The notes under the pieces are model-generated. The model was not told where the DNA came from and did no database searches. It worked only from the letters and a program-made list of their open reading frames with translations. From Thermococcus celericrescens (GTDB lineage Archaea > Methanobacteriota_B > Thermococci > Thermococcales > Thermococcaceae), in the NCBI RefSeq assembly GCF_001484195.1, contig NZ_LLYW01000035.1:1-64000 (forward strand): a stretch of 64,000 nt of DNA, given 5' to 3'. Made by a program: the position numbers and the translations under genes. How positions within the stretch are numbered: the first letter of the stretch is position 1; every line of letters begins with the position of its first letter. Shown in pieces: positions 4,025 to 59,591 of the stretch.

Positions 4025-5119
4025 ATGGACGGTACCCAAACAATCCTCATGGTTGAGGCATTCATAGTTATGCTGGCGGATTTAACCGCCGCAACGGTGA
4101 TATTTAAAAAGTACCTCTCAATCCGCAGGAAATCGGTACTCGCCTTTTCCCTGGCGTGGGTATTTGATTTCATCTTTGTCCTTGCCAGTGCCTTCCAGGA
4201 TGTGGGCTGGCTTGAGGTTGTTGGATTGATCTCACTGCCCCTATTTGCGGGATTGATGTTCTACGGCTCGGTTCTGTTTATGGGGGAGGAAAGCCTTGGA
4301 ATACGCCACGGCAACTTGGGAAAAATGGGACTCATGCCGGTTATGTTCATGTTTTATATGTACGCCACATATTACTACACGAACAACGCCCTGTGGACCG
4401 CCACGGTAGCCGCCTCATTTGGTATAAGCGGGGTTTTCGTCGTTGGGGCGGGGACTCTGCTGTGGGACGTGAGGGAGATTTATCATAGTGCCGTGAAGTA
4501 CCTTTCCATAGGCATTATCTTCTTTGGACTTCACCTGATTCCCGCCGCAATTTTAGGCGCCCATACTTGGTACATGCCAGGGGGGTTCACACTCTCAACG
4601 GTTCTCATAGTTGAGATGGCATGGGCCATGCTTCGTCTAGTGCACATGGACACTTTTGAGAACATTTCAAAAAGCGTTCCATCGGAGATAGACATGAGCC
4701 CTGGAGTGATGGTGGTGGATCAGAAGAGCTACATTCAGCTCAAATCCGTCCTTGCGAACTCCCCAGTCCTTGCATTCATACGCAATGTCTCCGACATTCC
4801 GGAGACGTGGACATACTATTTCGTGACAACGGTTCCCTTTGAAAGGGCTGCCAAAACGCTTTATCCAACTGATTTGGCTAAGATGGTGGAAATCTCCTAC
4901 CGCTATATGGAGAAAGTCTCCGCCTCCGGCGGCAGGGGCGTTGTTGTTATTGACTGCCCGGAATACCTCGCGGTTTACAACTCCTGGGAGAGCCTTATGA
5001 AATTTCTCTCGAAACTGCGGGACATTGTCGTCATCAACAATGGCACCCTGATACTGGTCGTTGAGAAGACCAGCTTCGACCCCCAAAGGTGCTCCCAGCT
5101 AGTACGGCTTATGGAGTGA
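4025..5119 (+). CDS. Membrane protein with C-terminal DUF835-type domain
   Basis: Roughly the first 215 residues form about seven hydrophobic helices. The ~150-residue soluble C-terminus (VVVIDCPEYLAVYNSWESL, then LRDIVVINNGTLILVVE) matches the pattern of DUF835, a domain common and often duplicated in Thermococcales. ATG 4025 is chosen over 4007 because GGGTGAACC lies just before it. DUF835 has no established biochemical role; a membrane sensor or signalling role is a guess. The next gene downstream is a guide RNA with its own promoter. Confidence 0.75.
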   Translation: MDGTQTILMVEAFIVMLADLTAATVIFKKYLSIRRKSVLAFSLAWVFDFIFVLASAFQDVGWLEVVGLISLPLFAGLMFYGSVLFMGEESLGIRHGNLGKMGLMPVMFMFYMYATYYYTNNALWTATVAASFGISGVFVVGAGTLLWDVREIYHSAVKYLSIGIIFFGLHLIPAAILGAHTWYMPGGFTLSTVLIVEMAWAMLRLVHMDTFENISKSVPSEIDMSPGVMVVDQKSYIQLKSVLANSPVLAFIRNVSDIPETWTYYFVTTVPFERAAKTLYPTDLAKMVEISYRYMEKVSASGGRGVVVIDCPEYLAVYNSWESLMKFLSKLRDIVVINNGTLILVVEKTSFDPQRCSQLVRLME

Positions 5120-5125
5120 GGCAGC

Positions 5126-5133
5126 TTTATATA
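5126..5133 (+). promoter_or_regulatory. TATA box of the three-hairpin H/ACA RNA
   Basis: TTTATATA, centred about 26 bases before the first base-paired residue of the RNA (5156), fits archaeal TATA-to-start spacing. Confidence 0.65.
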
Positions 5134-5154
5134 CCCTCTTTTTCAACGTGTTAA

Positions 5155-5370
5155 TGCCCCCGCGCGAGGACTCTGGGGACGAATGAACCAGAGTGCGATG
5201 CGGGGGCTACAGCCCGGTCTTACAGCGAGGTCCCCGCGGGAGGGCCTTCCGCGTTACGGAGCACAATGGCCGCGGGAAACCCAGACCGGGCACAGACGGC
5301 CCGCCTGGGTTAGCCCGCCTGAGCCCGCCGTCTGGCATCGATGAGGGCGGGAGTTACGGGCGGGCCATAG
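5155..5370 (+). ncRNA. H/ACA box guide RNA with three stem-loops
   Basis: This GC-rich stretch holds three successive hairpins, each closed by a perfect lower stem followed by an ANA box. Hairpin 1 is GCCCCCGC (5156) with GCGGGGGC (5200-5207), then ACA 5209. Hairpin 2 is GCCCGGTCT (5212) with AGACCGGGC (5283-5291), then ACA 5292. Hairpin 3 is GGCCCGCC (5298) with GGCGGGCC, then ATA 5367. In each, an unpaired pocket lies about 14-16 bases upstream of the box, as needed for archaeal pseudouridylation guides. Hairpin 3 has K-turn strands CTGA (5319) and GATGA (5340). Hairpin 1 has a GGA...TGA K-loop for L7Ae. Targets, probably rRNA uridines, were not assigned. Confidence 0.78.
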
Positions 5371-5434
5371 CATAGTAACATTCCGTGGAGTAAGATTTAT
5401 TAGCCTCTTGTGATAGTTTTATCCGGGGATATGT

Positions 5435-39362: not shown

Positions 39363-39761
39363 ATGAAGCTCATCATCAAGCCGAACAAGGGCTTCGGGAA
39401 AATTGGGGCCGAGATAAACGAAGAACTGTGGGGGGAGATAGAGCGTCTCGGCGAGAGATACGGCGTTTCTCCTGAGATGGTCATCGAGATAGCCTTCAAA
39501 GGGGAGTTCAAAAAGCCCAAGGGAAACCTTGAGGAACTTGAGGAGAAGGTGAAGGAGCTTGAGGAAAGGACGTGGGAGCTTGAGAAGGAGTACGCCCCGC
39601 TCCGCTTCAAGGCCTACGGCCTGAGCGAGGACAACAGGATACTCGCCACCGAGCTCTCGGGCCTAATAGCCGAGAACAGCCAGCTTAAGCGGTTCCTGAG
39701 AATGAAGCCCGAGCGCAACCTTGAGCTGAGAAAGCTTATATCCTACTACCTCCAAGGTTGA
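39363..39761 (+). CDS. Coiled-coil hypothetical protein (MetJ/Arc-like N-terminus possible)
   Basis: 132 residues: a basic N-terminus (KLIIKPNKGFGKIG), a short helix pair (GVSPEMVIEIAFKGEF) that could be a ribbon-helix-helix-like segment, then a coiled coil. ATG 39363 is preferred over GTG 39354. It shares layout with the preceding gene. Function unknown. Confidence 0.65.
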   Translation: MKLIIKPNKGFGKIGAEINEELWGEIERLGERYGVSPEMVIEIAFKGEFKKPKGNLEELEEKVKELEERTWELEKEYAPLRFKAYGLSEDNRILATELSGLIAENSQLKRFLRMKPERNLELRKLISYYLQG

Positions 39762-39764
39762 ACC

Positions 39765-39819
39765 GCGGATGATGACAGCGAATTGCGCGGATCGGTGAAG
39801 AGCAACGCTATCTGACGCC
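39765..39819 (+). ncRNA. C/D box sRNA candidate 1
   Basis: Box C ATGATGA (39769-39775), 12-base guide, D' CGGA (39788-39791), three-base linker, C' GTGAAGA (39795-39801), ten-base guide, box D CTGA (39812-39815), closed by GCG/CGC. Spacing is exactly that of archaeal dual-guide C/D sRNAs; only D' deviates from CTGA. I could not assign the two targets. It starts just after the upstream stop codon. Confidence 0.62.
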
Positions 39820-39827
39820 GTCCCGGG

Positions 39828-39898
39828 CGGGCCGTGACGATTCCAAGACGGGCTGAACCGCTTTGCGGTTGTGACGTACCCTATGAGCGCCGAGCCCG
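39828..39898 (+). ncRNA. C/D box sRNA 2, predicted guide for Cm34 of tRNA-Met and for 23S rRNA
   Basis: Terminal stem CGGGC (39828-39832) with GCCCG (39894-39898); box C GTGACGA (39834-39840); guide TTCCAAGACGGG; D' CTGA (39853-39856); a small hairpin linker; C' GTGACGT (39871-39877); guide; box D CCGA (39890-39893). The D guide (39879-39888) pairs over ten bases with GCTCATAGGG of the tRNA-Met precursor at 46740, and the fifth base from D faces C34. The D' guide pairs over nine bases with the conserved 23S rRNA sequence CCCGTCTTG. Archaeal sRNAs guiding Cm34 of elongator tRNA-Met are known. It overlaps the 3' end of nob1 on the opposite strand. Confidence 0.82.
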
Positions 39899-40387
39899 TC
39901 CGGGGCGTTTTCTCCGGCGCTTCTTCTTCGGTATCAACCTCACCGGGCTGCCGCAATCCGGGCAGATTCCCTCCGGCGGCATCTCTGAGAAACGCTTTCC
40001 ACAGCCGATGCAGACGTAGTTCCAGCGGATGACTCGCTTTATCCCGCGCTTCAGGGTTCTGAACTCTATTCCGAGGATTTTCGCTATGTTCTGCAGGTTG
40101 TAGTCGTCGGTGAACAAGGTAGCATTGAGCTCGTACGCGAGGGCTAAAACCTCAACGTCCGCCTCGCTCAGCTCCCCCAGCTCGCCCGTCTTTCTGGCCG
40201 CTTCCCTTACCGCCTCAAGGCTCTCCTTTGAGGGGACGAGGACCTTGACCTTTCCGGCGCTTATCAACCCCTCCAAAAAGAGCCTCGACTCCGGGTCTTT
40301 AACCTCATCAACGACCTTCGGCGTCGTGAAGCCCTCGACGTCTATCCCCTGAATGAAGACCGCCGCATCTATGACCTGAACCTTCAT
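39881..40387 (-). CDS. nob1: Nob1-like rRNA maturation endonuclease (PIN domain plus zinc ribbon)
   Basis: 168 residues: a PIN domain with acidic residues in [11 protein letters not shown] (N-terminus), [11 protein letters not shown] and LFTDDYN, then a zinc ribbon (CIGC ... CPDC, ~residues 130-150) and a strongly basic tail ([14 protein letters not shown]). This order is that of archaeal Nob1, which cuts the 3' end of pre-16S rRNA. Confidence 0.92.
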
Positions 40388-46739: not shown

Positions 46740-46847
46740 GCCGGGGTAGCTTAGCCTGGTCAGAGCGCTCGGCTCATAGGGCCGCTCCCCTTCGGGGGAG
46801 CCTGAGAAACCGAGAGGTCCGGGGTTCAAAGCCCCGCCCCGGCACCA
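46740..46847 (+). tRNA. tRNA-Met (CAU, elongator type) with intron
   Basis: Acceptor GCCGGGG/CCCCGGC with encoded CCA. Anticodon stem CTCGG (46768-46772) with CCGAG (46810-46814). The loop starts CTCATA and is interrupted after A37 by a ~30-base intron (46779-46808) that contains its own hairpin CTCCCC-TTC-GGGGGAG, fitting a bulge-helix-bulge splice site. The absence of the initiator-type GGG/CCC anticodon stem points to the elongator. tRNA-Ile2 (CAU) is the alternative. Confidence 0.92.
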
Positions 46848-59397: not shown

Positions 59398-59558
59398 TGA
59401 GCATCCGACGACGCCCGGCGGCCCGGTCCCGGGAGCCGGTGCGGTGCCAGCGATGAGCGGGTGCGACGATACCGGGCGGACAGGGCTCGCCCTCCGGGCC
59501 ACCGGAGGACGCCGTCCGGCCGCCGATGAGGGATGGAGATGGGTCGAGCCCACATTTT
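59398..59558 (+). ncRNA. H/ACA box guide RNA with two stem-loops
   Basis: Hairpin A: CGCCCGG (59412-59418) with CCGGGCG (59472-59478), then ACA at 59480. Hairpin B: GGGCTCG (59483-59489) with CGAGCCC (59545-59551), then ACA at 59552 and a T5 run. Both upper stems carry the K-turn strand GATGAG (59452 and 59525), and both have an unpaired pocket ~15 bases upstream of ACA. This is the complete archaeal H/ACA layout. The GC content is far above the AT-rich flanks. Targets not assigned. Confidence 0.78.
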
Positions 59559-59591
59559 TAACCTCTTTGTCGAACTTCTTCCGGTGAGATC

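Follow-up and report, generated by a model that had tools for sequence, protein, structure and literature searches.

In Pyrococcus, part of the intron of pre-tRNA-Met pairs with the guide of the C/D RNA sR49, and methylation must come before splicing (PMC2584109). In Haloferax, sR-tMet is described in PMC4033218 (citing Joardar 2011) as the guide for C34 of elongator pre-tRNA-Met. Two human C/D RNAs, SNORD97 and SCARNA97, guide Cm34 of the elongator tRNA-Met (PMC6601510); these are eukaryotic, intron-encoded and pair with the anticodon stem-loop, whereas the RNA considered here pairs with the intron junction. The archaeal C/D RNA in the intron of pre-tRNA-Trp (sR50) also directs Cm34 on an unspliced precursor, but it resides in the tRNA intron, whereas the Met guide has a gene of its own. 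We note that the numbering of the Pyrococcus Met guide differs between sources, being sR41 in Rfam (RF01126) and sR49 in PMC2584109; since the Met guide CCUAUGAGcgCUGA forms part of the sR41 consensus, sR41 represents a Pyrococcus-type Met guide.

The window analysed here, a stretch of 64,000 nucleotides from Thermococcus celericrescens, carries a relative of these RNAs, hereafter called the Met-guide RNA (Table 1). On sequence grounds, 39819-39907 is a genuine, conserved double-guide archaeal box C/D sRNA gene, whose transcription, RNP assembly and both methylations we infer. We have high confidence in an overall explanation in which a double guide addresses C34 and 23S rRNA, is co-transcribed with an upstream RNA from a TATA box, and is closed by a 14-bp stem under selection. 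The C34 target and the pairing with the intron are already published biology and not new. The long-stem tandem architecture and the second target are lineage-specific, and a limited literature search found no description of them.

Table 1. Positions of the Met-guide RNA, its neighbours and its tRNA target in the window
Feature	Position	Strand	Basis or remark
TATA-box-like CTTATATC	39735-39742	+	inside 3' end of upstream coiled-coil gene
Tandem C/D sRNA (sR41-like)	39765-39818	+	Rfam sR41, 33.1 bits (gathering threshold 54 bits), E=7e-6 on 700 bases
Tandem RNA boxes	C ATGATGA 39769-39775; D' CGGA 39788-39791; C' GTGAAGA 39795-39801; D CTGA 39812-39815		
Tandem RNA D' guide AGCGAATTGCG	39777-39787	+	predicted target 23S GUGCAAUUCGCU
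Terminal stem, 5' arm	39819-39832	+	98.9% of cells paired (51 distinct sequences)
Box C GTGACGA	39834-39840	+	sequence, Rfam alignment
D' guide TCCAAGACGGG	39842-39852	+	11 contiguous pairs with T. kodakarensis 23S
Box D' CTGA	39853-39856	+	sequence
D'-C' hairpin (ACCGC/GCGGT)	39857-39869	+	all four scored pairs changed on both sides
Box C' GTGACGT	39871-39877	+	sequence
D guide CCCTATGAGC	39879-39888	+	exact complement of 46772-46781
Box D CCGA	39890-39893	+	sequence; identical box in Rfam sR-tMet consensus
Terminal stem, 3' arm	39894-39907	+	antisense to 3' end of nob1-like gene
Convergent PIN-domain endonuclease gene	39881-40387	-	Pfam PIN_6, 6e-20
Intron-containing elongator tRNA-Met(CAU) gene	46740-46847	+	sequence; intron from 46779, C34 = 46775

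Identity of the Met-guide RNA and its predicted pre-tRNA target

The first-pass annotation had recognised a C/D sRNA here, and all four of its boxes lie where it placed them. The sequence features of an archaeal box C/D sRNA are present: boxes in the order C, D', C', D over 39834-39893 with spacers of about 12 nt (12 nt for each guide spacer of this RNA), a terminal stem beside C and D (14 bp, covarying), and guides of 10-12 nt whose targets face the fifth base upstream of D or D'. L7Ae, Nop5 and fibrillarin would assemble on its two kink-turn-type motifs. The covariance search that the annotation had proposed matched Rfam sR-tMet (RF02163) at 39829-39897 with 31.4 bits (E=9e-4, local search at permissive thresholds), below the gathering threshold of 50 bits, and a search of the whole T. 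celericrescens genome with Rfam returned the Met-guide RNA as its single sR-tMet match (E=7.5e-4). That threshold was reached by no genome of our phylum sample and, among the controls, by Haloferax only. Against sR41 (RF01126) the Met-guide RNA scores 10.9 bits, short of the 54 bits set for that family. Based on the boxes, the Rfam match and the family-wide conservation of the guide, the identity claimed at first pass is well supported.

RF02163, the best Rfam match, is characterised by a guide to C34 of elongator pre-tRNA-Met, and the Met-guide RNA carries such a guide. Haloferax volcanii sR-tMet shares with it the D guide core CCCUAUGAG, the predicted C34 target and the box D CCGA, and also has a GC-rich terminal stem; the two differ in the D' guide and in the 23S target, and the Rfam model has a 4-bp outer stem as compared to the 14-bp terminal stem and the tandem partner found here. 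The Pyrococcus Met-guide sRNA has the D guide and its target in common with the Thermococcus RNA.

The tRNA gene in question is a complete elongator (CAU) gene including CCA; ARAGORN and Rfam return only tRNA-Glu, because the tRNA-Met gene carries an intron. The ten-base complementarity claimed at first pass is exact and, the guide's own complement aside, the 10-mer GCTCATAGGG has this one site in the window. Counting upstream from box D, the fifth base is G39885, which lies opposite C34, and three of the ten paired target bases (GGG, 46779-46781) are intron bases, so that full pairing is possible only on the unspliced pre-tRNA-Met; in the spliced tRNA seven bases (G31-A37) are left to pair. 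The D guide would pair with the anticodon/intron junction of the elongator precursor, and C34, the first anticodon base, would then receive its 2'-O-methyl group before splicing. Both the Cm34 prediction, for which Pyrococcus sR49 and Haloferax sR-tMet provide the precedent, and the predicted need for an unspliced precursor are well supported, and the Met-guide RNA almost certainly directs methylation of tRNA-Met C34.

This assignment is borne out among relatives, as the first-pass annotation had suggested should be checked. The guide with its box D (CCCTATGAGCGCYGA) occurs exactly in 85 of 94 Thermococcaceae genomes, whereas the reversed control pattern has no match in the same 94. Four more genomes hold a one-mismatch Met guide inside a clear C/D RNA, bringing the total to 89 of 94 with at most one mismatch, and the five genomes lacking a match are assemblies 53-91% complete. 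The exon-intron junction of tRNA-Met, CTCATAGGG, was found in nearly all family genomes searched and is the same wherever the gene was matched. Conservation of the intron GGG may also reflect a splicing motif as an additional constraint. Throughout the family Thermococcaceae, then, the guide that addresses the wobble position of tRNA-Met is conserved.

Alternatively, the guide might act on mature or initiator tRNA-Met, or the RNA might mainly be an antisense regulator, for instance of the convergent mRNA. That convergent gene encodes a PIN domain and a zinc ribbon, is presumably Nob1-like (a name taken from the PIN domain and CxxC motifs), and overlaps the structured unit by 27 bp at its 3' end; in T. 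kodakarensis, 16 antisense snoRNAs cover the 3' end of a sense gene (PMC4247193). For P. furiosus, moreover, Cm34 is listed under an initiator tRNA-Met label, in a text that does not give position 34 of the elongator (PMC7668247). We note that the known guide fits the intron-containing elongator. Against these alternatives, the seven pairs of the spliced tRNA are all that a mature target could offer, the bases CCC that pair with the intron are invariant along with the rest of the D guide in 51 aligned sequences, and the guide stays constant where the sequence downstream of the RNA varies from genome to genome. We consider such a role very improbable and retain the unspliced elongator precursor as the target.

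The D' guide and its predicted 23S rRNA target

The D' guide can form a duplex with T. kodakarensis 23S rRNA that extends over 11 nt from the box-proximal end, with one G-U beside the box, and over 12 nt in species with A as the preceding 23S base; of 400 shuffled guides, 0 formed as many as 11 pairs with 23S. A search of the T. celericrescens assembly detected no 23S gene, and the D' target therefore rests on congeners. The segment reads UCCGUCUUGGAU in Thermococcus, with TCCGTCTTGGAT in T. kodakarensis as compared to TCCGTCTTGAAA in Pyrococcus. A39848, the fifth base upstream of D', lies opposite the U in 23S UCCGU(m)CUUGGA, which is near E. coli U566, an equivalence that is approximate because it comes from a MAFFT alignment. 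The D' guide would pair with the Thermococcus segment UCCGUCUUGGA, and this U, which is position 2,025,238 of the 2,088,737-bp T. kodakarensis genome, would receive a 2'-O-methyl group.

The first-pass annotation had proposed nine bases of complementarity to a 23S segment quoted as CCCGTCTTG. It had the region right, but not the sequence, which is the Thermococcus one given above, nor the extent, which is 11-12 nt. Its motif, as CCCGTCTTGAAACACGG, had no match in any Thermococcus genome tested when up to two mismatches were allowed; four genomes from other genera contain it in the form TCCGTCTTGAAACACGG.

The distribution of this guide follows that of its target. Where the 23S site could be read, it is present in 38 of 38 genomes with GGA(T/G) and in 0 of 23 with GAAA. 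Because the 38 are members of a single genus, they probably reflect one concerted change, which counts once. Conservation of the D' guide among relatives holds for the Thermococcus version of 23S but not for the Pyrococcus version. A guide fitted to the latter (TTCAAGACGG plus box) gave three scattered single matches in 30 genomes, none of them conserved.

It could be argued that only the Met guide is functional, that the 23S match is incidental, and that D' is an orphan guide as in Pyrobaculum, where tRNA-targeting guides are paired with orphan guides (PMC7994747). The D' guides of Met RNAs in other genera would be in keeping with this, since they vary and their pairing with P. abyssi rRNA extends over 5-9 nt, much like that of shuffled guides. 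In Thermococcus, however, 11 nt of the D' guide are unchanged among the 51 distinct sequences, the guide pairs over 11-12 nt and it is restricted to genomes whose 23S has the matching segment, and we regard an orphan guide as unlikely. The D' guide very probably methylates 23S, and the Thermococcus Met-guide RNA departs from the Pyrobaculum pattern. Given the variable, chance-level D' guides that accompany the Met guide elsewhere, the combination of Met and 23S guides is lineage-specific, and the evidence does not extend to the suggestion that one RNA would couple the modification of tRNA with that of rRNA. What we have is a concrete case in which a tRNA guide appears to have gained a second, rRNA target.

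Closing stem, tandem partner and putative promoter

The stem that closes the Met-guide RNA pairs 39819-39832 with 39894-39907, and the structured unit thus extends over 39819-39907. The pairing noted at first pass was correct, but its length was not, the 5 bp reported being the inner part of 14 bp; the Met RNAs of other genera have a median of 4 bp. In an alignment of 51 distinct Thermococcus sequences of the long-stem type, which align easily, double-sided changes occur at nine of the 14 stem pairs, and over the whole structure 13 of 18 tested pairs are doubly changed as compared to 5.0 in shuffles (0 of 500 as high). Shifting the partner by 1-3 columns lowers pairing to half or less, and RNAalifold recovers the same 14-bp stem unprompted. 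The outer two pairs of the D'-C' hairpin are nearly always kept. Folded as a single sequence the tandem does no better than shuffles (z=-1.14), so the structure rests on covariation, not energy. The covariation indicates that the 14-bp stem is kept by selection, and we hypothesise that it probably serves the processing of two abutting RNAs.

The second of these, which the first-pass annotation had not reported, directly precedes the Met-guide RNA and resembles sR41 at a score below the gathering threshold. Its stem (GCG/CGC) is 3 bp long in 55 of 55 loci, and in all 55 the tandem lies behind the same coiled-coil gene. In tandem loci this upstream RNA has no Met guide; its D' guide, nearly constant as AGCGAATTGC and with GCGAATTGC constant among the variants listed, is complementary to 23S and can form a 12-nt duplex with that of T. 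kodakarensis at about E. coli A753. Its D guide has drifted, with GAGGACTGGCC and AGAGCAACGCTAT among the forms seen in different species, and is apparently an orphan in many of them.

The element CTTATATC is the putative promoter of the tandem: TTATAT begins 28-29 nt ahead of the upstream RNA's box-C block in 54 of 54 tandem loci scored, and no TATA-like element was found in the GC-rich spacer before the Met-guide RNA. With a TATA box ahead of the first RNA and none ahead of the second, one transcript containing two abutting C/D RNAs can be envisaged, and the Met-guide RNA is probably co-transcribed with the sR41-like RNA from the TATA box in the preceding gene. The two RNAs might instead have separate starts, the 14-bp stem then being the plain terminal stem of an independent gene. 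Co-transcription is itself an inferred step, and many archaeal sRNAs reportedly mature from varied precursors. The fixed distance of the TATA element to the first RNA and the lack of such an element in the spacer before the second speak against separate starts, which we consider rather unlikely, and co-transcription remains our preferred reading.

In T. kodakarensis, 69 snoRNAs were verified (PMC4247193), and the Met-guide locus maps at about 287.6 kb in that genome. According to PMC9014305, sR13 lies at 279,797 and sR15 at 316,130; sR14, placed by order between 279,863 and 316,130, decreases at least twofold when the RNA ligase is knocked out. Since sR13 and sR15 bracket the locus, sR14 may by this order be one of the two tandem RNAs. 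The locus is absent from the circular RNA list of the same source (PMC9014305).

Two further observations concern the surroundings. In one assembly, two contigs carry different versions of the tandem Met RNA, which could reflect a second strain in the assembly. The window also contains strong Rfam matches to two Pyrococcus non-coding RNAs, HgcG (203 bits, 5099-5374) and HgcE (67 bits, 59445-59570).

Other genera and the possible origin of the tandem

In Pyrococcus and several other genera, an RNA with the Met guide follows the coiled-coil gene that also precedes the Thermococcus tandem, and for the short type this position was found at 21 of 35 loci. The Pyrococcus form is about 54 nt long, with a median stem of 4 bp and a variable D' guide that has no evident rRNA target. 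Three Thermococcus genomes likewise have the short Met RNA. Two loci in the genus Pyrococcus contain, just upstream of the Met RNA, an additional C/D half-unit whose guide is GGACTGGCC, a guide that the upstream tandem RNA of Thermococcus carries on its D side; a three-guide array or guide shuffling is possible. In a sister genus, the single Met RNA of genome G001 resembles the Thermococcus type in its 6-bp stem (GGGCC..GCCC) and box D CCGA; the tandem partner is absent and the D' guide is different. The short sR41-type form occurs in the congeners G002 and G003.

These comparisons lead us to speculate that in Thermococcus the Met guide moved from a Pyrococcus-type, single-target RNA to an adjacent long-stemmed, rRNA-targeting RNA, that the original RNA stayed adjacent with a new rRNA guide, that the 14-bp stem insulates or processes the pair, and that the rRNA target so gained matches a lineage-specific 23S change. 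Taken as a whole, this is a tentative reading to which we would give somewhat less than even chances. If true, the tandem would be a traceable case of guide relocation. The predicted sites are few and precise, namely C34, one U and one A of 23S. The match between guide and 23S, the two architectures and the tandem could together show how guides are rewired without the loss of a conserved modification.
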